Source: Flavobacteriia bacterium (GTDB lineage Bacteria; Bacteroidota; Bacteroidia; Flavobacteriales_D; Crocinitomicaceae). From it: a DNA stretch of 38,073 nt. A program made the translations under genes and the position numbers. The stretch spans positions 1 through 38,073 of the forward strand of contig CANFUT010000030.1 in the NCBI GenBank assembly GCA_947450325.1, read 5' to 3'. Positions 2,653-13,917 of the stretch are shown in pieces. Under the pieces are notes generated by a model. That model made no database searches. It was not told where the DNA came from and saw only the letters and a list, made by a program, of their open reading frames with translations. Position 1 is the first letter of the stretch, and every line of letters starts with the position of its first letter.

Positions 2653-5600
2653 ATGAAATTTAACGAAGATACTCGTGTAAAAATCCCTACAATTATTCAT
2701 TTGAGTAGATTGGGCTACAAGTATTTATCATTAAAGAATTTGAATTGGGACTCATCAACAAATATTGTCACTGAGATTTTTATAGAAAATATCCTAAAAC
2801 TTAATCCAGACTTATCTGAGAGTGATGCAAAAAGATATTTTGATGAAATTTCATTAACACTTGAGAATGAAGATTTAGGTAAAGCTTTTTATGAAAAATT
2901 GACCAATACTTCAGGAATACGATTGATCGATTTTGATAACTTTGAAAATAATCAATTCAATGCTGTAACCGAATTCACTTGCAAAAAAGATGACGATGAA
3001 TTTAGACCTGACATTACACTGCTAATCAATGGAATGCCACTCGTTTTTATTGAAGTCAAAAAACCAAACAACTTAGACGGAGTTCAAGCAGAACAAAAAC
3101 GAATAAATAGTAGATTCCAAAATAAAAAATTTAGAAAGTTTGTAAACATCACTCAATTGATGGTGTTCTCAAACAATATGGAATATGATGATTATTCTCA
3201 TACTCCGCTAGCTGGAGCCTTCTATGCAACCTCTTCATACAAAAAACCAATTTTCAATTATTTTAGAGAAGAAAAGGAAGAACTTTTTTCATCTATTTTG
3301 TCGAAAGACCTAGATGAAAATGAAGAACTCTTGGTTTTAAGAGACACAAATTGCCTTAGTATTAAGAATTCACCAGAATATATAACCAACAAAAATCCAA
3401 ATACGCCAACAAATAGAATTTGTACTTCACTTTTTGATTTAAATCGTTTGGCGTTTGTTCTTCGTTACGGAATTGCATATGTTAAAGAAAAAAATGGAAT
3501 TCAAAAACACATAATGCGCTATCCTCAATTGTTTGCAACAAAAGCAATTGAAGCAAAATTAAATGAAGGAATAAAAAAGGGAATCATTTGGCACACCCAA
3601 GGAAGTGGAAAAACTGCACTAACCTATTATAATGTAAAGTTCTTAACTGATTATTTCCAAAAGAAAGGTGTTGTTCCCAAATTCTATTTTATAGTAGATA
3701 GACTTGATTTACTAATTCAATCCGCCAGAGAATTTAAAAGTCGCGGTTTGGTTGTACATGAAGTTAATTCAAGAGAAGAATTTTCGAAGGATATCAAATC
3801 AACCAATGTAATACACAATAATTCAGGTAATACAGAAATCACAGTTGTAAATATTCAAAAATTTGAAAATGACCCAAATGTGGCCCGAAATACCGACTAC
3901 AATGTGAATATTCAACGTGTATATTTCTTGGACGAAGTTCATCGCAGCTACAATCCCAGGGGAAGTTTTTTAGCTAATTTGCATGAATCAGATCAAAATG
4001 CAATCAAAATTGGCTTGACTGGAACACCTTTGATTGGCGCAGATTATTCTTCCAAAGCAATATTTGGAGATTATATTCATAAATATTATTACAATTCTTC
4101 AATCGCCGACGGTTACACTTTGAGATTGATTCGGGAAGAAATAGAGACAGAGTATAAACTTTATATGAAAGAGACTCTAGATGAGATAAAAATTATCAAA
4201 GGAGACGGAAATAAGAAATATGTTTATGCTCATCCAAAATTTGTTGACCCTCTATTAACATACATCATTCAAGATTTTGAAAAAACTCGAATTGCCATGA
4301 ATGAAAATTCTATTGGAGGAATGGTTGTTTGCGATTCATCGGAGCAAGCAAAACAAATGTTTGAAATTTTTCAAGAAAGATATAATCCGCAAGAAGAAAG
4401 TAGTGAATTTATGTTGATGGCGGCTGGATCTCCACTGCCATATGACAATCCTGTTCTTTCTGAAAGTAAAGTGAAAACTGCCGCATTGATTTTGCATGAC
4501 GTGGGTTCAAAACAAGATAGAAAAGAACAAGTTGAAGCATTTAAAGAAGGAAAGATAGACTTTTTGTTCGTTTACAACATGTTACTAACTGGTTTTGACG
4601 CGCCAAGATTGAAAAAATTATACATTGGCAGGGTCATAAAAGCACACAATTTGTTGCAGACATTAACTCGAGTAAATAGAACCTATCAAGATTTTCGTTA
4701 TGGATATGTAGTCGATTTTGCTGATATTCAGAAAGAATTCGATAAAACCAATCGAGATTATTTCAATGAATTACAGTCTGAATTAGGAGACGAAATGGAA
4801 CACTATTCAAATCTATTCAAAACTAAAGAAGATATTAACAATGATATCCAGAATATCAAAGAAGTTCTATTTCACTATGACACCAAAAATGCAGAGAATT
4901 TTTCAAGTCAAATTTCACAAATTCAGGATCGCAGTGAGATGCAACGACTAGTGAAAGTTTTAAATGATGCAAAGAGTTTGTATAATTTAATTCGTTTATC
5001 TGGAAATTATGAATTGCTAGACAAATTAGACTTTCATAAACTTACCATTCTTTCGCGAGAAGCCAGTAATCATTTAGCATTAATCAATACCAAGGAAGCA
5101 TTAGAAAATAATGTTGATACCACAAATTTATTGAATATTGCTCTCGAAGACGTACTTTTTGCTTTCGTAAAAGTCAAAGAAGAAGAAATGGTACTTGCGG
5201 ACCAATTGAAGAATATATTGCAAAAAACGCGAGAAGCTTTGGGTGGAAATTTTGACCCACACGACCCGCAATTTATTTCTCTAAAAGAAGAATTAGAGCG
5301 CCTTTTCAAGAAAAAAAACTTGAACGAAGTCACCAAAGAAGAAATGGAAGCAAATATCAAAGCACTGCAAGATATTTACGACAAAGCAAAAGAATTGGAG
5401 CGAAAAAACCAATTGCTACGAGCGAAATATGATAACGACGAAAAATATGCGCGCTTGCACAAACGTTTGATGGAAAAAAATCCATTAACAGAAAGCGAAA
5501 GCAAATTATTTGAAGCTTTACAAGGTTTGAAACAAGAAGTAGACAATCAATTACAACAAAACGCACAAATTCTTGAAAACGAAAATTATGTAGAACGAAT

Positions 5601-5730
5601 GATCATGCGTTTTGTCCTTGAGCAATTTAAAAACAAACAGAATATTCCCATGGATTTAGAAACTTCGAAACGAGTGAATGCCATGGTTGTAAGGGAATAC
5701 ATGAACGAATTTTACGGCAGAGTTGCATGA
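2653..5730 (+). CDS. hsdR: Type I restriction enzyme subunit R (HsdR)
   Basis: A 1025-aa ATP-dependent translocase and endonuclease subunit of a type I restriction-modification complex. The nuclease motif is complete: Asp120 (FRPD) and Glu134-x-Lys136 (IEVKK). The SF2 motor follows, with Walker A HTQGSGKT at 314-321, DEVH at 427-430, TGTP at 456-459 and the motif VI region QTLTRVNR at 669-676. The C-terminal third is charged and coiled-coil-like, as expected for the HsdM-binding part. Length is normal. An ATG at 2637 opens a short out-of-frame reading frame that runs over the chosen start, so 2653 is the proper start. The stop overlaps the next gene's ATG by 4 nt, and hsdM and hsdS follow after a transposase and a hairpin field. 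Confidence 0.95.
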   Translation: MKFNEDTRVKIPTIIHLSRLGYKYLSLKNLNWDSSTNIVTEIFIENILKLNPDLSESDAKRYFDEISLTLENEDLGKAFYEKLTNTSGIRLIDFDNFENNQFNAVTEFTCKKDDDEFRPDITLLINGMPLVFIEVKKPNNLDGVQAEQKRINSRFQNKKFRKFVNITQLMVFSNNMEYDDYSHTPLAGAFYATSSYKKPIFNYFREEKEELFSSILSKDLDENEELLVLRDTNCLSIKNSPEYITNKNPNTPTNRICTSLFDLNRLAFVLRYGIAYVKEKNGIQKHIMRYPQLFATKAIEAKLNEGIKKGIIWHTQGSGKTALTYYNVKFLTDYFQKKGVVPKFYFIVDRLDLLIQSAREFKSRGLVVHEVNSREEFSKDIKSTNVIHNNSGNTEITVVNIQKFENDPNVARNTDYNVNIQRVYFLDEVHRSYNPRGSFLANLHESDQNAIKIGLTGTPLIGADYSSKAIFGDYIHKYYYNSSIADGYTLRLIREEIETEYKLYMKETLDEIKIIKGDGNKKYVYAHPKFVDPLLTYIIQDFEKTRIAMNENSIGGMVVCDSSEQAKQMFEIFQERYNPQEESSEFMLMAAGSPLPYDNPVLSESKVKTAALILHDVGSKQDRKEQVEAFKEGKIDFLFVYNMLLTGFDAPRLKKLYIGRVIKAHNLLQTLTRVNRTYQDFRYGYVVDFADIQKEFDKTNRDYFNELQSELGDEMEHYSNLFKTKEDINNDIQNIKEVLFHYDTKNAENFSSQISQIQDRSEMQRLVKVLNDAKSLYNLIRLSGNYELLDKLDFHKLTILSREASNHLALINTKEALENNVDTTNLLNIALEDVLFAFVKVKEEEMVLADQLKNILQKTREALGGNFDPHDPQFISLKEELERLFKKKNLNEVTKEEMEANIKALQDIYDKAKELERKNQLLRAKYDNDEKYARLHKRLMEKNPLTESESKLFEALQGLKQEVDNQLQQNAQILENENYVERMIMRFVLEQFKNKQNIPMDLETSKRVNAMVVREYMNEFYGRVA

Positions 5731-6197
5731 GTACCTATTCTCAAATATACATTCAAATCGTATTCGGTGTTAAACATCGAAACGCCCTAATATCACCAAA
5801 GTGGGAAGATGAGCTGTACAAATATATAACGGGGATCATTCAACAAAAAGGACAAAAAGTAATTGCAATAAACGGTACAGCGGATCACCTGCATATTTTA
5901 ATTGGTATGAAACCAAATTGCAACCTTTCTGATTTAGTAAGGGAATTTAAAAAAGCAAGTAGCGTTTTTGTTCGAGAAAAAGGTTTTTGTCCCTTCAAAT
6001 TTGAATGGCAAGAAGGATATGGCGCTTTTTCATACAGTCATTCAGCGCTGGACAATGTGATTCGATACATAGATAATCAAAAGCAACACCACAAAAAAAG
6101 TACTTTTAAAGAGGAATATGTAGAATTTTTAGAAAAATTTAATGTCGATTTTAAAAATGAATATTTACCAAAATTTATTGAAGAAGAAATGGAATAA
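5727..6197 (+). CDS. RAYT-type HUH (Y1) transposase, IS200-like
   Basis: A 156-aa single-strand DNA transposase of the IS200/REP-associated family. The HUH metal site is D-H-L-H at 53-56. The catalytic tyrosine is probably Tyr114 in RYIDNQKQHH, the usual context in this family. The ATG overlaps the hsdR stop as ATGA, so it is probably translated by coupling. It is followed at once by a field of REP-like palindromes, the classic arrangement for a domesticated REP-associated tyrosine transposase. No IS ends or accessory tnpB are present, which favours a domesticated RAYT over an active IS200. Both catalytic elements look intact. Confidence 0.88.
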   Translation: MSTYSQIYIQIVFGVKHRNALISPKWEDELYKYITGIIQQKGQKVIAINGTADHLHILIGMKPNCNLSDLVREFKKASSVFVREKGFCPFKFEWQEGYGAFSYSHSALDNVIRYIDNQKQHHKKSTFKEEYVEFLEKFNVDFKNEYLPKFIEEEME

Positions 6198-6208
6198 GGG
6201 CTGCTATA

Positions 6209-6510
6209 CGACCCACTCCGGGGTCGAGTTGCCTAGCGGGATTTTTTTTTAGCGCTATATCATCCCTTCGGGATGAACATACGAGTAAAAAAACACAAAG
6301 CACAAGATCCCGAAGGGATCACATTGATATAGTAAAACAATAAAAGATCCCAAAGGGATCAAATAGTTATAATCAAAAGCGAAGTATGTCGCACCCGACT
6401 CCAACGCGGGTCGCGTAGGAATAAAAAAACACAAAGCACAAGATCCCGAAGGGATCAAATAGTTATAACCAACAGAGATATATGTCTCGCCCGACCCCAA
6501 CGTGGGTCGC
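6209..6510. repeat. REP-like hairpin field between the RAYT and hsdM
   Basis: Two palindrome families alternate. Family A (GATCCC-N3-GGGATC or CATCCC-N3-GGGATG): 6261-6275, 6306-6320, 6346-6360, 6442-6456. Family B (CGACCC-N6-GGGTCG or close): 6209-6226, about 6391-6414 (imperfect) and 6492-6509. A 36-base segment at 6286-6321 recurs exactly at 6422-6457. The 71 bases at 6344-6414 recur without gaps at 6440-6510 with about 10 differences. So the field is built of duplicated A+B composite units. REP palindromes next to a RAYT gene are the expected substrates of that transposase. There is no protein-coding gene here. Confidence 0.85.
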
Positions 6511-6548
6511 ATAGATATCCCCCTGAAATGGGTCAAAAAAAAGAAAAT

Positions 6549-8174
6549 ATGACAACAACAATTCAATTCGAACGCCAAACCAAAGCCCTCATCGACGACC
6601 TAAAAAGCGTCTGTGCCAACTACGGCTTAGGAAACGATGGTAACGAATTCAAAATCATTACCCAGGTTTTCCTATACAAATTCTTGAACGACAAATTTGC
6701 ACACGAAGTACAAAAAATCGACTCCAAATTGGCGCAAGCCGAAAACTGGGGAGCAGAATTAAAAAAATACTCCAAAGATGATTTCGAAATGTTGACTTTC
6801 CAATTGAGTGAAAGTACCGCAATTCTGAAACCAGAACAGTTTATCTCTTCCCTATTCGAGCGCCAAAATGAAGCAAAGTTTGCTGATTTATTCGACAACA
6901 CTTTGTTAGACATTGCAAAAGAAAACAGTGCATTATTCTCCGTAATTACAGAAGGTGGCGAGAAAATTACCTTGTTTGAAAACATCAGTAAATATGTGAC
7001 CGATAAACGCGACGAATTCTGCAAAGCGATTATCAATAAATTGATCAATTTCAGTTTTGAGCACATTTTCCATGAGAAGTTCGATTTCTACGCAACGATT
7101 TTCGAATATTTAATCAAAGATTACAACACGAACAGTGGCGGAAAATATGCGGAATACTTTACACCGCACGCTGTAGCGAAAATCATGGCGCGTTGCTTGG
7201 TGCAAGGCGATGTGAAAAATGCGATGTGTTACGATCCATCTGCAGGTTCTGGAACTTTGTTGATGAATTTAGCGCACCAAATTGGCGAAGACAAGTGCAC
7301 CATCTATTCTCAAGACATTTCGCAAAAATCTTCGAACTTACTGCGTTTGAATTTGATTTTGAACGATTTGGTGCATTCTATTCCAAACATTGTAAAAGGA
7401 AACACCATTTTGGAACCTTACCACAAGGACAAAAGTGGCAAACTACAGAAATACGATTTCATCGTTTCTAACCCGCCGTTTAAACTGGATTTCTCCGATT
7501 ACAGCGCGGATTTAGATACCAAAGAAAACCACGACCGCTTTTTTGCAGGAATACCTAACATTCCAAAAGCGAAGAAAGATTCCATGGCGATTTACTTGCT
7601 ATTCTTGCAACACATCATGTTTTCATTGAAAGAAAACGGAAAAGCAGCGATTGTGGTGCCAACCGGTTTTATTACCGCGCAAAGTGGTATTGACCGCAAG
7701 ATTCGTGAGAAAATGGTGGAAGACAAAATGTTGGCGGGCGTGGTTAGTATGCCAAGTAACATCTTTGCAACCACGGGCACCAATGTTTCCGTGATATTCT
7801 TGGACAAGCAAAACAAAGGAGATGTAATTCTGATTGATGCATCCAATTTGGGAACAACCATCAAAGAAGAAAAAAACCAAAAAACAGTACTTTCTCATGA
7901 AGAAGAAGATAAAATCATTGACACATTCAACAAAAAAGAAGCCATTGAAGATTTCTCTGTAGTCGTTTCTTACGACGATATCAAAACAAAGAACTACTCT
8001 TTGAGTGCTGGACAATACTTTGAGGTAAAAATTGATTATGTGGATATTACCCACGAAGAGTTTACTTCCAAACTACGAGGTTTTGAAGAGAACTTGAAAG
8101 ATTTATTCGCAGAGTCGAAGATTTTGGAGAAAGAAATTGAGAATAATTTGAAGGGATTGAATTATGGGGCGTAA
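6549..8174 (+). CDS. hsdM: Type I RM methyltransferase subunit M (HsdM)
   Basis: A 541-aa N6-adenine DNA methyltransferase. The SAM-binding motif DPSAGSG is at 229-235 and the catalytic motif NPPF at 308-311. The helical N-terminal HsdM domain (IQFERQTKALIDDLK...) starts right at residue 4. An in-frame ATG lies at 6528, but the seven extra residues fall on the last REP-like repeat, and family members normally start MTT-x-IQFERQ, so I chose 6549. hsdS overlaps the 3' end by 11 bases. Base use is less AT-rich than in the genes downstream of hsdS, suggesting a different age or origin. The hairpin field lies in its leader and could separate its expression from hsdR. Confidence 0.95.
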   Translation: MTTTIQFERQTKALIDDLKSVCANYGLGNDGNEFKIITQVFLYKFLNDKFAHEVQKIDSKLAQAENWGAELKKYSKDDFEMLTFQLSESTAILKPEQFISSLFERQNEAKFADLFDNTLLDIAKENSALFSVITEGGEKITLFENISKYVTDKRDEFCKAIINKLINFSFEHIFHEKFDFYATIFEYLIKDYNTNSGGKYAEYFTPHAVAKIMARCLVQGDVKNAMCYDPSAGSGTLLMNLAHQIGEDKCTIYSQDISQKSSNLLRLNLILNDLVHSIPNIVKGNTILEPYHKDKSGKLQKYDFIVSNPPFKLDFSDYSADLDTKENHDRFFAGIPNIPKAKKDSMAIYLLFLQHIMFSLKENGKAAIVVPTGFITAQSGIDRKIREKMVEDKMLAGVVSMPSNIFATTGTNVSVIFLDKQNKGDVILIDASNLGTTIKEEKNQKTVLSHEEEDKIIDTFNKKEAIEDFSVVVSYDDIKTKNYSLSAGQYFEVKIDYVDITHEEFTSKLRGFEENLKDLFAESKILEKEIENNLKGLNYGA

Positions 8175-9357
8175 GGATTGGCAAATTACAAATGTTGGAA
8201 ACCTTTGCTCTAGAATTGGCGATGGACTTCATGGAACACCAGAGTATAATAAAGAAGGAGAAATATATTTTATTAATGGAGTAAACATTAAAAATGGGCG
8301 AATAGTTGTTTTCGAAGACACAAAAAAAATTAGTATTCGAACATTAGAAAAACACTTTATTCCTCTTGATGAGAAAACATTACTAATGTCAATAAATGGA
8401 ACATTAGGTAATCTAGCTTTCTATTATGGTGAAAAAATCATGTTGGGTAAAAGTGCTGCCTATCTGAACTTTAAAACTGAAATTAACAGATTCTATTATT
8501 ATTACTTTCAGTTATCGGGAGTTCAAGAATATTTTTATCAGGTTGCTACTGGTTCAACGATAAAAAACCTGGGATTAAAATCAATTCAAGATTTTGAAGT
8601 TCCTTGTCCTGAAGAAAAGGAATGGAGACCAATCGCCAAAGTTCTTTCCGACCTAGACGCAAAAATAGAACTCAACAAAAAGATCAACTCTGAGTTAGAA
8701 GCCATGGCCAAACTCATTTATGATTTTTGGTTTGTGCAGTTTGATTTTCCGAATGAAGATGGCTTACCGTATAAAAGTTCGGGCGGAAAGATGGTTTGGA
8801 ATGAGGAATTGAAAAGAGAAGTACCTGAGGGTTGGGAAGTGAAGGAATTAGGGAAGTATGCCAATATAAAAAAAGGAACGTTAATAACTGGTAAGACATC
8901 AAACTCAATTGGGAAAATCAAAGTTGTATCTGCAGGTCTTGATTTTTCTTACTACCATGATGTTTCTAATTATCCTGAAAATACAATTTCAATAAGCGCA
9001 TCTGGAGCTAATGCAGGTTATATTAATTTTTGGAGAGAACCGATCTTTGCATGCGATTGCACAACTGTTAGAGGTTCAAATGATGCTGATACAATCCATA
9101 TTTTAGGTTTTCTTAAAATGAGACAAGAGTTTATCTATCAACAAGCAAGAGGCTCAGCTCAACCGCATGTTTATCCCAAAGATATAGAAGCACTTTTAAT
9201 TCCTACTCCACCGTTTGAATTAATTACGAAATTTTCAAATAAAGTTATTTCAGGAAATAAAAAAATATCAATCAATTTAAAAGAAAACCAAAAACTCGCC
9301 GAACTCCGCGATTGGTTGTTACCGATGTTGATGAATGGGCAGGTAAAATTCAAATAA
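8164..9357 (+). CDS. hsdS: Type I RM specificity subunit S (HsdS)
   Basis: A 397-aa DNA-recognition subunit with the two-repeat layout. Target recognition domain 1 is about residues 5-150, followed by a conserved helical spacer (IAKVLSDLDAKIELNKKINSELEAMA) at 157-182. Target recognition domain 2 is about 224-360, starting at GWEVKELG. A second conserved helix ends with LRDWLLPMLMNGQV. Both recognition domains are intact, so a bipartite target is expected, but it cannot be read from sequence. It starts inside the hsdM 3' end. No second hsdS or inverted repeat for phase variation is nearby. The next gene starts 6 bases after the stop. Confidence 0.93.
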   Translation: MGRKDWQITNVGNLCSRIGDGLHGTPEYNKEGEIYFINGVNIKNGRIVVFEDTKKISIRTLEKHFIPLDEKTLLMSINGTLGNLAFYYGEKIMLGKSAAYLNFKTEINRFYYYYFQLSGVQEYFYQVATGSTIKNLGLKSIQDFEVPCPEEKEWRPIAKVLSDLDAKIELNKKINSELEAMAKLIYDFWFVQFDFPNEDGLPYKSSGGKMVWNEELKREVPEGWEVKELGKYANIKKGTLITGKTSNSIGKIKVVSAGLDFSYYHDVSNYPENTISISASGANAGYINFWREPIFACDCTTVRGSNDADTIHILGFLKMRQEFIYQQARGSAQPHVYPKDIEALLIPTPPFELITKFSNKVISGNKKISINLKENQKLAELRDWLLPMLMNGQVKFK

Positions 9358-9685: not shown

Positions 9686-11320
9686 ATGTATCAAGAAATA
9701 CCATTTGAAAAAATAGCACATCTAAAAGATCAGTCAATTTTAATAGTTACTGCTACAGATATTGAAACAGAAATTTTACATAGTGTTTTAAAGCCAATCT
9801 CAAGCGATGGCTTGATTTTAAAATCACATAATGCAGATAAAACATACTTTATCGCGGTTTTTGGTGTGTATTCTTGTTTTCATATTCAGTGCGGCACTAT
9901 GGGTTCTATTGGGGTCAGAAGTTCAATTGTCACAGTAATGGACGCAATAAGTTTACTGTCGCCAAAAATTACAATTATGATTGGAATTGCCTTTGGAGTA
10001 GATTCTGAAAATCAAGAAATTGGAGATGTGCTGGTTGCTGATACAATAGTCCCATATGACAATAAAAAAATTAGTCAGGGAGAAACAATAATACGCGCTT
10101 CAACAATTCCAACAAGTCAATTATTACTAGACAAGTTCAAAAATTTACGTGATTGGGAACACCAATTAAATGAAAGACCCGCTAAAAAAATAGTGTCTCC
10201 TGTGTTCTCAGGAGAAGAATTGATAAATGACATAATAAGAAGAAAAGAAATAGAAGAAATTAATAAACTTGCAAAAGGAGGAGAAATGGAAGGGGCGGGA
10301 CTCTACGCCGCAGCCAATGGTAAAAGCGAATGGATTCTCGTAAAAGGTATTTGTGATTTTGCAGATGGGAATAAAGATCAAAATAAAGACGAAAATCAAA
10401 AAATTGCTATGCGTTCAGCAGTTTCTCTCTGCCTTGAAGTGTTTTCAAGTTTACATGCTTTTAAATCATTGAATTTATCTCCTTTTAAAGATGTAGAAAT
10501 AAGAAATAATGAAATTATTTTTGATCCACTAATAGTAAATAATGTACTATTCGACATCTATGATATTAAGAAAGAAAAATTTTATTTAATTCGTGATAAG
10601 GATACTGAAATAACCAAAATAATTAATTTCTATTCAATCTGGATTAGTGGAGATTCTGGCAGGGGAAAATCAATTTCAATTCTTCGAAATTTAATTAATT
10701 CAGAATTCGAGTTTATACAAGTTAACCTTGCAAATTGTTTGGGTTTATCAATAGATGATTTTTTCTTTGAAATATATGTGGAAATATTGTCAATCCTTGA
10801 TTCTACTAGTAAGATTGATACTAAAAAAGATTATCAGGACTCTATCCGAAAAATAAATTCGCTATTAAACACTGATAATAAAGGAAAAACCATTTTTATA
10901 TTAATTGATGAAATACCACTTGGTAACGATGAAAAATTTTCTGAATTCGTTCAGAAAATCTGCTCATTATTTATAACATCTTCACAAAATATCAATGGTA
11001 CAAACATTAGATTTGCATTATCATCGATATATTCACCGGAAAATCATATTCCCGAATTTCAAAATAAGGTGCGCGCAAATCTTCAGTTTGTGAAAATTGA
11101 AAACTGGACTGAATCCGAATGTATGGAATTAATTTCACTAATTGAGAATGAATTGAATTTCAAATTGGTTCAATCAAGTAAGGAATTGATTATTAATCAA
11201 TCTAATGGCTCACCACGATGGATAAAAAACGTTTTAAAAAATCTAATTATGTTAGGTGATTTTTCAGAAAAAAATGTCGAAGTAGCGATTTCTCATACAA
11301 AAAGTCAAAATGTAAAGTGA
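9686..11320 (+). CDS. Nucleoside phosphorylase-fused STAND-type NTPase
   Basis: A 544-aa two-domain protein. Residues about 17-256 form a PNP/UDP-phosphorylase (MTAN-like) domain. It shows an early TAT-DIE segment (Glu27), GTMGSIG at 70-76, GIAFGVD at 100-106, GEMEGAG at 199-205 (Met201/Glu202, ribose contact) and Asp224 in ICDFAD, the usual base-protonating Asp. Residues about 300-540 are a P-loop NTPase with Walker A GDSGRGKS (322-329), Walker B IFILIDE (403-409) and a GSPRWIKN segment at 508-515 that resembles the STAND/AAA sensor region. PNP-fold effectors fused to STAND-like NTPases are known immune effectors; some cleave ATP (ATP nucleosidases such as Detocs DtcC). I infer that this is a nucleotide-destroying effector switched by its NTPase. 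The stop overlaps the next start (TGATG). Confidence 0.85.
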   Translation: MYQEIPFEKIAHLKDQSILIVTATDIETEILHSVLKPISSDGLILKSHNADKTYFIAVFGVYSCFHIQCGTMGSIGVRSSIVTVMDAISLLSPKITIMIGIAFGVDSENQEIGDVLVADTIVPYDNKKISQGETIIRASTIPTSQLLLDKFKNLRDWEHQLNERPAKKIVSPVFSGEELINDIIRRKEIEEINKLAKGGEMEGAGLYAAANGKSEWILVKGICDFADGNKDQNKDENQKIAMRSAVSLCLEVFSSLHAFKSLNLSPFKDVEIRNNEIIFDPLIVNNVLFDIYDIKKEKFYLIRDKDTEITKIINFYSIWISGDSGRGKSISILRNLINSEFEFIQVNLANCLGLSIDDFFFEIYVEILSILDSTSKIDTKKDYQDSIRKINSLLNTDNKGKTIFILIDEIPLGNDEKFSEFVQKICSLFITSSQNINGTNIRFALSSIYSPENHIPEFQNKVRANLQFVKIENWTESECMELISLIENELNFKLVQSSKELIINQSNGSPRWIKNVLKNLIMLGDFSEKNVEVAISHTKSQNVK

Positions 11321-13917
11321 TGGATAAGATATTAAGACCGTATACGATAGTGCCCGCTTCACTTTATGTAGAGCGATCAGCAGACAGGCAAGTTAGTGAT
11401 ATTATAAAAGAAATGGGACGACCAGGCTACGTTCTTGTTTCAAGGCAAATGGGGAAAACAAATTTATTATTAAATGCTCGGCGAAAATTTTCTACAGACG
11501 AGGATAAGTTTGTTTACATAGATCTAAGTAACTTGTTTGACACAGATTTAGATTGTTTTAGAAATATTATTGATACTGCAATTGAGACGAATCTTGATTC
11601 CTTCGTTGGTTTAGATTTAGAAATTAATAATTTCAGAAAGGACTTTTCAAATTTACCGCCTCATAAACAACATGAAAGAGAATTAAGAATATTATTAAAT
11701 AAAATAAACGGGAAATTAATTGTTGTTTTAGATGAAATTGACGCTTTAACAAAAACTGATTATTCAGACAGAATATTTTCACAAATTAGAAGTATATATT
11801 TTGCAAGAGTTAATTACCAAGAATTTAACAGATTAACATATTTATTATCGGGAGTTGTCGAACCCTCAGACCTAATCAAAGATCCGAAAATTTCACCATT
11901 CAACATAGGTGAAAAAATCTTTTTAAATGATTTTACTTATACTGAATTCAGTTATTTTATCGTAAAAGCTAATTTAAATAATTTAAATCCATCGGTTATA
12001 GAAAGGATTTTTTATTGGACTAATGGAAATCCTCGCATTACTTGGGATTTACTTTCAATAATTGAAGACGACAAAGAGTCTTTTAATATTGCAAAAGATG
12101 TTGATAACGTTGTATCAAAGCATTATCTAACCTCATTTGATAAACCCCCAATTGATAATATACGGGAGATCGTAAAAAAAGATCAACAACTGAAGGATGC
12201 AATCTTTGAAATTCATTATGGAAAAGGTAACTTAATTACCGATTCAGTTAAACAAAAGTTGTATTTATCAGGAATAATAAATCTAGAAACTGAAAAAGTT
12301 GAAATTAAAAATAGGATTATTAAATCATCACTATCAGTTAGTTGGATAGAAACCTTAGGAGGTAACACTATCGATTACTTCCAAAAAGGAATTGAGTATT
12401 ATGGCAATTCAGCTTATAAACTTGCTATCGAATCTTTAAACTCAAGTCTGTCAACGCAAAATCTAGAAAGTAATGATATAAACCTAGCGAAACTATATAT
12501 TGGATTAAGTCACTATTATAATGGTCAATTTGAAACGGCAAAATCGTTTTTAAAGGAAATAACATTTGATAAAAAAGAATTTGGCAAATTATTTTCCTTA
12601 CTAAAACTGCATTTAGGGTACGTTTTTATTTTAGAAAATGAGTATGAAAATGCTTGGGATGTTTTAAAGGAATTGGTGGACTTTGAACCAAAAAATGAAT
12701 TTGATCTTTCTGCAAAAATCAATTTAATTCTAATTGGCAACATTTTAAAGGATTCTGAAAAAAATCAAATTATTGAAAAATATATTAAGGAACTAATACA
12801 CATTGAAATTAGCGAATTCGAACTTGAAAATTTCAATATTTTTTATGAAGCAAAATTTGTGGCTGGAATCTCGTTGAATAATTTGAATAATGAAATATTG
12901 AACAATATAGACCTTGTTCAATATCTAGAAAATTTAGAACAAAATATCTCAACAGAGTTCAAAACGAATTTATTCCTAAAACTTTATGAAATACATCCAG
13001 ATGCTGAATTAAGAAAAAAATATATTTCGAAATCATTTAATAATATTATTGAGAATAAAGTCAAACTTAATCATTCGCGTTTACCAAGTGCTCACAAATT
13101 CAGAACAAAACAACTCCGTTATTTGGAATATTATTTATTTAAAGAAAAACTTCTTTCAGATTTTAATGAGCTAATTGAATATGAGTTAACACTAAGAAAG
13201 TCTTATACAAAAGAAAAAGTTTTTGATAAACTTATCGGGTTTATCCAAGAAAAGAAAATTCCTGAAAGTGATATTTTTTCCTTAGCAGAATATTTTTACT
13301 TGAGTACTCCACCATTGGACCTAGATATAAAGAAAAATTTATTGACACTGTTAAGTAATTATTCTTTCACTCATGGAAATAGAATTAATTCTAAGTACGA
13401 AATTGAATTATTAGAATTTATTTTTCAAAATGAAGGTGATGAGATTTCTTTAGAAGTAGTTACATTTCTTATGGTCGCAATAGATAAATTATTACAAGAA
13501 AAAGATTACAATAAAGCAAATTATTTCATTAAAATGGGATATGCAATTGAATCAAGAATTCCAGTGGAAATAAGGGATTCAATTCTACTAATTAATTTCT
13601 TAGAACTGATATATCTAAAGAAATCTGGCAATTTTGAAGATGCGAAAAATAAAGCATCTGAAATATTAGAACTTTCGAAAAGAAATAAGGCAGAAAATTC
13701 AAAAAACCCGCTTATTATTAATAATTTGAAAGGAATTATTAATGAATGTTTCTCGACTATTAATGAACTTAAAAATAGAATTCCCATATTCAAATCGAAT
13801 ACACCTAATAGGAATGAGATCGTAAAAGTACGTTATAAGAATGGGAAAGAAATCACGACAAAATATAAAAAAGTAGCACTTGATATTGCAAATGGTAATT
13901 GTTTAGTTATCAAATAA
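11320..13917 (+). CDS. AAA_35-type STAND NTPase with helical-repeat region
   Basis: An 865-aa protein. The N-terminus (YVERSADRQV...GYVLVSRQMGKTNLL) is the signature of AAA_35-like STAND ATPases: a degenerate P-loop RQMGKT at 42-47, Walker B IVVLDEID at 134-141 and a sensor-like WTNGNPRI at 233-240. Residues about 330-810 are all-helical with TPR-like pairs (YFQKGIEYYGNSAYKLAIESL), a typical ligand- or partner-sensing superstructure. The last about 34 residues, after a polar linker, look like a small beta module (VRYKNGKE...KYKKVALDI). A GTG at 11317 is in frame, but the ATG at 11320 overlaps the upstream stop as TGATG and is preferred. It lacks an evident catalytic effector, so it probably acts as sensor or regulator of the upstream phosphorylase-NTPase. 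Confidence 0.82.
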   Translation: MDKILRPYTIVPASLYVERSADRQVSDIIKEMGRPGYVLVSRQMGKTNLLLNARRKFSTDEDKFVYIDLSNLFDTDLDCFRNIIDTAIETNLDSFVGLDLEINNFRKDFSNLPPHKQHERELRILLNKINGKLIVVLDEIDALTKTDYSDRIFSQIRSIYFARVNYQEFNRLTYLLSGVVEPSDLIKDPKISPFNIGEKIFLNDFTYTEFSYFIVKANLNNLNPSVIERIFYWTNGNPRITWDLLSIIEDDKESFNIAKDVDNVVSKHYLTSFDKPPIDNIREIVKKDQQLKDAIFEIHYGKGNLITDSVKQKLYLSGIINLETEKVEIKNRIIKSSLSVSWIETLGGNTIDYFQKGIEYYGNSAYKLAIESLNSSLSTQNLESNDINLAKLYIGLSHYYNGQFETAKSFLKEITFDKKEFGKLFSLLKLHLGYVFILENEYENAWDVLKELVDFEPKNEFDLSAKINLILIGNILKDSEKNQIIEKYIKELIHIEISEFELENFNIFYEAKFVAGISLNNLNNEILNNIDLVQYLENLEQNISTEFKTNLFLKLYEIHPDAELRKKYISKSFNNIIENKVKLNHSRLPSAHKFRTKQLRYLEYYLFKEKLLSDFNELIEYELTLRKSYTKEKVFDKLIGFIQEKKIPESDIFSLAEYFYLSTPPLDLDIKKNLLTLLSNYSFTHGNRINSKYEIELLEFIFQNEGDEISLEVVTFLMVAIDKLLQEKDYNKANYFIKMGYAIESRIPVEIRDSILLINFLELIYLKKSGNFEDAKNKASEILELSKRNKAENSKNPLIINNLKGIINECFSTINELKNRIPIFKSNTPNRNEIVKVRYKNGKEITTKYKKVALDIANGNCLVIK

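Follow-up and report, generated by a model that had tools for sequence, protein, structure and literature searches.

A Y1 transposase and its very probable cognate hairpin array between hsdR and hsdM of a type I restriction operon

Introduction

Why does an operon for type I restriction and modification hold a transposase gene and a palindrome-rich gap between its restriction and its modification gene? The question is raised by a stretch of 38,073 nucleotides (here, the window), positions 1 to 38,073 of the forward strand of contig CANFUT010000030.1, from a Flavobacteriia bacterium of the Crocinitomicaceae (assembly GCA_947450325.1; 3.44 Mb, 99.98% complete). On the plus strand of the window, hsdR is followed by a gene for a Y1 transposase (tnpA), a gap, hsdM and hsdS, with the Pfam order HSDR_N, Y1_Tnp, N6_Mtase and Methylase_S, and Pfam and PADLOC together identify a type I restriction-modification operon with its three hsd genes in one direction. 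An initial annotation of this locus had proposed that a REP-associated tyrosine transposase (RAYT) and its repetitive extragenic palindromes (REPs) split R from M and S within one operon, either as a parasite or as a device through which hairpins in the transcript set the expression of R apart from that of M and S. Two of its statements are borne out directly, namely the HUH transposase whose ATG overlaps the hsdR stop, and the separation of hsdR from hsdM by the transposase gene and the gap.

With good probability, in our view, the insert is a REPtron-like passenger, in which a Y1 HUH transposase of the subclass 1.2 type, low in copy number and unlike an insertion sequence (IS) in its behaviour, is lodged between hsdR and hsdM together with cognate hairpins arrayed locally. 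Judged from sequence, the catalytic residues of the transposase are kept, the hairpin class accompanies its clade next to various neighbours, and the junction is short or filled with other cargo in orthologous operons.

Results

The predicted TnpA protein, encoded by an intact open reading frame (ORF), carries the motifs DHLH, WQ and YIDNQKQHH (Y114-x3-Q-x2-HH), and residues H54, H56, Y114, Q118, H121 and H122 are invariant in an alignment of 31 rows. The Y...Q..HH arrangement recurs in 91 of 100 relatives and at 71 of the 80 loci on named contigs that are described below. TnpA passes the NCBIfam IS200 model (64.8 bits against a cut-off of 55), and its closest solved structures by sequence are transposases of the IS200/IS605 type, 2xm3 (E 2e-5), which we take to be ISDra2 TnpA, and ISHp608 2a6m (E 4e-4). 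The RAYT label of the initial annotation did not hold up, with the curated NCBIfam model NF047646 giving 20.9 bits against a cut-off of 80. The tyrosine motif Y---NP of class 2 RAYTs is likewise not that of TnpA, and the gap palindromes are not RAYT-type REPs, which have a GTAG or GTGG foot and are dispersed over the genome, their stem pattern being found at the window locus only. At a threshold of 1e-15 the window's own genome has no RAYT match, while such a match exists in 38 of 199 genomes from the order.

TnpA instead fits, by its sequence, the TnpA_Y1 subclass 1.2 type of Quentin et al. 2018. The portions of that survey used here (PMC6006769) give this subclass as having Y---Q--HH and a low copy number and as found in Cyanobacteria and Bacteroidetes. 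The tabulated motifs are DH[IV]H, WQ and Y---Q--HH in proteins of about 148 residues, and TnpA agrees with them apart from its DHLH, where the table has I or V. Its copy number is low and the copies are divergent: the genome contains two other intact genes, at 57% and 46% identity, and two fragments, and no near-identical copy was found there. A plasmid collection gave 37 records, every one below 60% identity.

The gap between tnpA and hsdM (6198-6548, 351 bp) contains three GATCCC-NNN-GGGATC hairpins, three CGACYC-type palindromes and one CATCCC palindrome (Table 1). Each GATCCC hairpin folds as a single DNA strand at -4.8 kcal/mol (z -2.8 to -3.7), and together with the interspersed CGACYC-type palindromes these hairpins make up two 75-nt units at a spacing of 96 nt. 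A scan of the whole 38-kb window for tailed hairpins, defined as short GC-bearing hairpins with TATA[AG] 4-10 nt after the stem, returned only the three GATCCC ones.

Relatives of the transposase carry the same class of hairpins. Among the best 80 of 341 relatives, taken from named genome contigs, 136 strict palindromes of the form GAYYCC-N3..5-GGRRTC lie within 1 kb of the gene, at 55 loci, against 0.0 in shuffled sequence, and their density falls from 2.0/kb in the first 250 bp on each side to 0.00-0.03/kb beyond 2 kb. Tailed hairpins number 219 within 800 bp, at 67 of the 80 loci (shuffles, 4.0), with 1.84/kb inside that distance and 0.044/kb beyond 3 kb, and the tail lies at an offset of 6 or 7 in 176 of the 219. 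A locus-weighted logo of 209 units gives the consensus CAnAYRTTTATAG, in which A reaches 97% at the position five bases ahead of TATA, TT 87% and 86% and the final G 75%; it has no conserved 5' foot, and the stems are variable. Since TATA[AG] itself was demanded by the search, the evidence for the tail rests on the other positions and on placement near the gene. The clearest array, at locus L078 (Segetibacter aerophilus), has by eye four units about 135 nt apart, each made of a tailed hairpin, a CGACCCC-type palindrome (imperfect in the last unit) and an inverted tailed hairpin.

The control consisted of 30 class 2 RAYT loci from the same order; 22 were usable, and the other eight were dropped as the motif search missed their gene. 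With one filter for both sets (offsets 6-8), close relatives of TnpA had tailed hairpins at 67 of 80 loci (1.70/kb), whereas the RAYTs had them at 2 of 22 (0.057/kb, the background level), with 0 GAYYCC palindromes. The hairpins go with the transposase and not with restriction genes, and to judge by these sequence comparisons the palindromes of the window are very probably cognate repeats of the adjoining transposase. The branch to which this hairpin class belongs is one recorded as REP-less in the main survey, whose table has 'no' under REP for subclass 1.2 and whose automatic REP search required a 5' GT[AG]G foot; in the same portions of the survey, REP or REP-like hairpins accompany class 2 (RAYT) and rare class 3 transposases (PMC6006769). 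Among the papers listed in searches of open-access literature, with subscription papers mostly outside the scope, none reports in its title or the opening of its abstract REPs for subclass 1.2 or a Y1 transposase between hsdR and hsdM.

Three further observations concern the relatives. At L022, L029, L035 and L036, which form one starred group in the tree, related transposases are accompanied by ATCCC-NNN-GGGAT hairpins whose tails, at offset 8, end in TTATAA; this may be a co-diverged variant. At L055, L062, L065 and L068, Bacteroidota-like transposases lie in contigs of metagenome-assembled genomes (MAGs) labelled Chloroflexota, Planctomycetota and Bacillota, through either transfer or binning errors. 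The transposase row of L012, from a genome of the window's family (G077), is identical to that of L089, a Crocinitomicaceae MAG, in keeping with the family given for the window.

Copies elsewhere in the genome were then counted. Three sites of GATCCCNNNGGGATC occur in the assembly, all in the window gap, and AGGGATCAAATAGTTATAA, at up to 3 mismatches, has two sites in the gap and one 3-mismatch site elsewhere in the genome. CGAYYCCNNNGGRRTCG has 0 occurrences in this genome and ATCCCNNNNGGGAT a single site, on another contig, so that the four patterns searched yielded no spread copies. The genome-wide palindrome count suggested in the initial annotation therefore speaks against REPs in the strict sense in the window's genome, because the palindromes have no other copies there; what stands of that claim is a repeat class that is real across relatives, while dispersed copies are lacking and the GATCCC stem pattern is confined to the window locus. 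The two paralogues in the same genome are adjoined by different palindromes, by eye GCTCC..GGAGC at L006 and GCCCC..GGGGC at L007, and the stem at L007, GCCCCNNNGGGGC, has two genome sites, both flanking that paralogue. For REPtrons, one hairpin family per paralogue is described in the survey portions used (PMC6006769).

Over 12 genomes, counts of CGAYYCCNNNGGRRTCG ran from 0 to 13, the exception being G228, which comes from the window's family and has 57. In Cecembia lonarensis the 13 sites are spread over 12 contigs, and in G228 the copies are dispersed as well, over at least nine contigs. The 57 CGAYYCC palindromes of G228 are clustered on contigs C4 to C50, several of them at a spacing of about 50 nt or 212 nt, and this genome has three matches to the transposase as well as one class 2 RAYT.

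To place the insert in the context of its operon, we sought HsdM orthologues in the family, order and class, and examined the junction upstream of hsdM at 33 of 34 other loci (32 genomes), L133 lying at a contig edge. Continuous operons at all homologous loci, with the same transcript ratio, had been named in the initial annotation as telling against its proposal. This pattern holds in part: 25 of the 33 loci have a short junction, from an overlap to about 105 nt, including the nearest orthologue L120 (hsdM 94%), in which hsdR and hsdM are a few bases apart. The remaining 8 are not short. By Pfam, they hold RhuM in L122, L125 and L137, Bro-N in L130 and a 23S rRNA-intervening-sequence protein (23S-IVP) in L123; L148 has a GIY-YIG protein along with seven copies of a 93-nt repeat, L144 has 187 nt without an identified gene, and L140 holds the transposase, the wider stretch (L189) reading hsdR, Bro-N, transposase, hairpin array, hsdM. 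The transposase insert is thus missing from 32 of the 33 junctions. Approached from the transposase side, the same order of hsdR, transposase and hsdM was found in Pedobacter (L039), in a MAG of Flavobacterium (L040) and in L055, a MAG with the label Anaerolineales in which codon 448 of hsdR is an in-frame stop. The space between hsdR and hsdM is a slot for cargo that probably tolerates insertions.

Repeats are also seen with other contents of the slot. In L148 (343-1473), the GIY-YIG gene (750-1058) lies amid the seven repeats as a second nuclease-plus-repeat module; in L123 (990-1540), the 23S-IVP gene is flanked by AATTACGAATT-type repeats (by eye), and repeats similar to these occur without a gene in L129 (1360-1560).

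Type I genes adjoin the transposase at nine of the 80 loci (L039, L040, L041, L054, L055, L064, L065, L074 and L078). In L041 and L078 an EcoEI-type hsdR is followed by the transposase, hairpins and hsdM; L065 and L074 have an EcoEI-type hsdR with the transposase 3 nt downstream, and count once because their transposases are indistinguishable in the tree. At L054 the order is hsdM, hairpins, transposase, hairpins, hsdS, which makes it an M–S slot, and at L064 a divergent hsdR stands beside the transposase. Less clear cases were left uncounted: L053 (38-residue hsdR match), L045 (24% hsdR match one gene further) and L050 (ResIII protein 6 nt upstream). The general rate of hsd linkage may be lower, since the query itself is hsd-linked and since the neighbours of the family sample (57 genes) include no methylase family among the 25 commonest of 60 families. 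Neighbours were scanned upstream for 69 of 73 ORFs and the window (L053, L068, L103 and L109 left out), downstream for 71 of 73 and the window (L113 and L116 left out) and in the family sample for 57 of 60 (L008 and L009 among those left out), each tally covering the 25 commonest families, of 91, 100 and 60, respectively, so that isolated weak hsd matches could go unseen in the family sample.

A quick tree of 110 rows, with proteins shorter than 110 residues left out and 10 rows labelled as hsd-linked (L078 unlabelled), scatters these ten: it has 8 changes against a shuffled mean of 9.7, with 18 of 500 shuffles as low, and 2 of the 8 changes are forced by starred branches. Holding the five EcoR124-like R–M rows together was not rejected (p 0.597), with a likelihood 8.56 higher than that of the free quick search. 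One entry into the slot and several are therefore indistinguishable, because the quick tree is scattered, yet the grouped tree is not rejected.

Locus features

The hsd genes of the window belong to a group that we take to be EcoR124-like. Its hsdR scores 268.3 bits with the NCBIfam hsdR model, below the cut-off of 284.55. The start codon of tnpA overlaps the hsdR stop as ATGA (5727-5730), an overlap that may reflect translational coupling. The longest hsdM ORF begins at 6528, and the start at 6549 is the most likely one because orthologues begin there (MTTT and similar). Upstream of hsdR lies a gene for a Fic/DOC family protein (587-2134). Downstream of the operon, 9686-13917 encodes a nucleoside-phosphorylase-domain protein that matches PADLOC PDC-M60C and then an AAA_35 ATPase, possibly a further defence pair adjoining the restriction operon.

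Table 1 Genes of the hsd operon and palindromes of the tnpA–hsdM gap, in window coordinates.
Feature	Position	Strand	Evidence or remark
hsdR, type I restriction subunit	2653..5730	+	Pfam HSDR_N 2e-26, SWI2_SNF2 7e-38; PADLOC REase_I 4.3e-45
tnpA, 156-aa Y1 HUH transposase	5727..6197	+	Pfam Y1_Tnp 1.1e-25
Palindrome CGACCCACTCCGGGGTCG, B type	6209..6226	.	z -2.8
Palindrome CATCCCTTCGGGATG, without properly spaced tail	6261..6275	.	part of inverted repeat I4
Tailed hairpin 1, GATCCC-GAA-GGGATC then ACATTGATATAG	6306..6332	+	z -2.8
Tailed hairpin 2, GATCCC-AAA-GGGATC then AAATAGTTATAA	6346..6372	+	z -3.7
Palindrome CGACTCCAACGCGGGTCG, B type, in first of two 75-nt units	6396..6413	.	
Tailed hairpin 3, GATCCC-GAA-GGGATC then AAATAGTTATAA; second unit	6442..6468	+	z -3.3
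Palindrome CGACCCCAACGTGGGTCG, B type, second unit	6492..6509	.	z -1.4, weak
hsdM	6549..8174	+	Pfam N6_Mtase 3.5e-64; PADLOC MTase_I 3.7e-276
hsdS, specificity subunit	8164..9357	+	Pfam Methylase_S 7.1e-29; PADLOC Specificity_I 2e-102

Discussion

As a REPtron-like passenger, the transposase would be expressed by read-through and coupling from hsdR; it would recognise the hairpin and cut single-stranded DNA at or near the tail, and this cutting would let hairpins duplicate and spread locally. A guide-motif cleavage model exists for REP transposases, as outlined in the portions of PMC8266576 used here. Tolerance of insertions at the junction and transfer of the whole operon as one piece may explain why the insert persists.

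Several points weigh against this picture. The activity of TnpA is a prediction, and the hairpins are undispersed in the window's own genome, so that mobility of the repeats there is not demonstrated; in Pedobacter changchengzhani, similarly, seven exact matches to GGGTCNMAYRTTTATAG all fall within 1.2 kb of one contig, at an hsd locus. The owner of the dispersed palindromes in G228 is unsure because of the class 2 RAYT in the same genome. The 80 loci are best matches to a single query and not mutually independent, the tail had been spotted in some of them before counting, and 13 of them lack a tailed hairpin inside 800 bp. Among more distant relatives in the window's family, tailed hairpins occur at only 10 of 29 loci (0.325/kb) and GAYYCC palindromes at 7 of 29, which makes the hairpin class strongest in the close clade.

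The insert could also be an ordinary IS200/IS605 insertion sequence, with the hairpins as its left and right ends. TnpA belongs to the same superfamily as the transposases of IS608 and ISDra2, passes the IS200 model and has its nearest solved structures there, as described above, but we find this quite unlikely: the genome offers no near-identical copy, the hairpins form arrays of tandem units rather than one pair of ends, and the window gene has hsd neighbours and no TnpB neighbour. A recombinational cassette is a possibility that we hold at clearly less than even, and it is compatible with the passenger reading: homologous recombination between hsd operons would bring genes into the slot, the transposase being one such cassette whose place owes nothing to its own activity. 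The idea accords with slot contents that vary by genome, be it RhuM, Bro-N, 23S-IVP, GIY-YIG or TnpA, and with the transposase adjoining Bro-N in L189 and a RhuM-like fragment (by eye) in L039. When 63 rows were tested for duplicated gene ends, four stood out, L040, L054, L058 and L068; the matches in L058 and L068 are the hairpin repeats themselves, while L040 (7586-7636) has a second copy of the hsdR 3' end (50 bp) beyond the inserted cassette, and in L054 (5625-5661) the hsdM 3' end recurs after the transposase. These duplicated 3' ends, together with the co-residence with Bro-N and RhuM-like pieces, suggest at the level of sequence that cargo accumulates in the slot by recombination. No gene-end duplication was found in the window, L039 or L055, however, and relatives of the transposase occupy many unrelated loci as well.

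We regard it as very unlikely that the insert is kept since transcript hairpins set the expression of R and of M/S apart, easing establishment of the system. In its favour, R and M are 818 nt apart in the window, as against under about 105 nt in 25 of 33 orthologues, and the RNA of the gap folds better than shuffles (z -9.1), a value that the inverted repeats alone would give. Yet a Bacteroidota promoter motif is absent from the gap at all five occupied loci tested (5/5), a weak test because the full motif is likewise missing from the 519 bp that precede hsdR, which contain just two half-motifs. Neither a sigma-70-type site nor a terminator-like site on the plus strand was found in the window gap; the three terminator-like matches all lie on the minus strand. 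Above all, the hairpins go with the transposase beside quite different neighbours, tailed hairpins accompanying it at loci without restriction genes (67 of 80 loci tailed, nine of 80 beside type I genes), and the insert is absent from nearly all orthologous junctions (32 of 33). Separate expression of R and M/S through hairpins, as put forward in the initial annotation, thus finds no support, and its alternative of a parasite or passenger fits better; should the R:M ratio be affected at all, this would be a by-product. A more far-reaching idea, which we think unlikely, is that subclass 1.2 transposases and TTTATAR-tailed hairpins are a further kind of REP system, next to those of class 2 RAYTs and class 3, recruited in at least some lineages as a resident module acting on type I operons, for example by nicking the displaced strand at hairpins and promoting cassette exchange at hsdR–hsdM or hsdM–hsdS.

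The REPtron-like passenger resembles several known systems in part, as compared with the portions of the cited papers used here. With TnpA_Y1 subclass 1.2 it shares the HUH and WQ motifs, Y---Q--HH, a length of about 150 residues, low copy number and occurrence in Bacteroidetes, and it differs in that most close relatives here have TATA[AG]-tailed hairpins on the 3' side, where the survey gives no REP (PMC6006769). With the REPtrons of RAYTs it has in common a low-copy Y1 gene, several flanking short hairpins, a conserved motif in a fixed place and paralogue-specific hairpins; those are class 2, with Y---NP and a GTAG foot, in contrast to the Y---Q--HH, TTTATAR tail and mostly local repeats found here in the genomes searched (PMC6006769, PMC8266576). 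GTAG- and CGTC-tagged palindromic repeats, the latter reported from Bacteroidetes, are also short palindromes with a conserved tag, whereas the window tag is TTTATAR at 6-7 nt from the stem, a comparison made by eye only; the 93-nt repeats of L148 contain CGTC (by eye) and may be nearer to that class (PMC3733652). Finally, prrC in ecoprrI is likewise an extra gene within an hsd operon, but PrrC guards its system (PMC12707154), and for the window transposase no guarding role is indicated, PADLOC giving no match.

A REP-like class with a 3' tail of its own on the class 1 branch, among close kin of IS200, would help to explain how insertion sequence transposases become low-copy genes that keep repeats. 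With a landing slot between hsdR and hsdM that is shared by unrelated small modules (TnpA with its hairpins, GIY-YIG with its 93-nt repeats, 23S-IVP, RhuM and Bro-N), the way in which cargo spreads through restriction operons can be tested directly.

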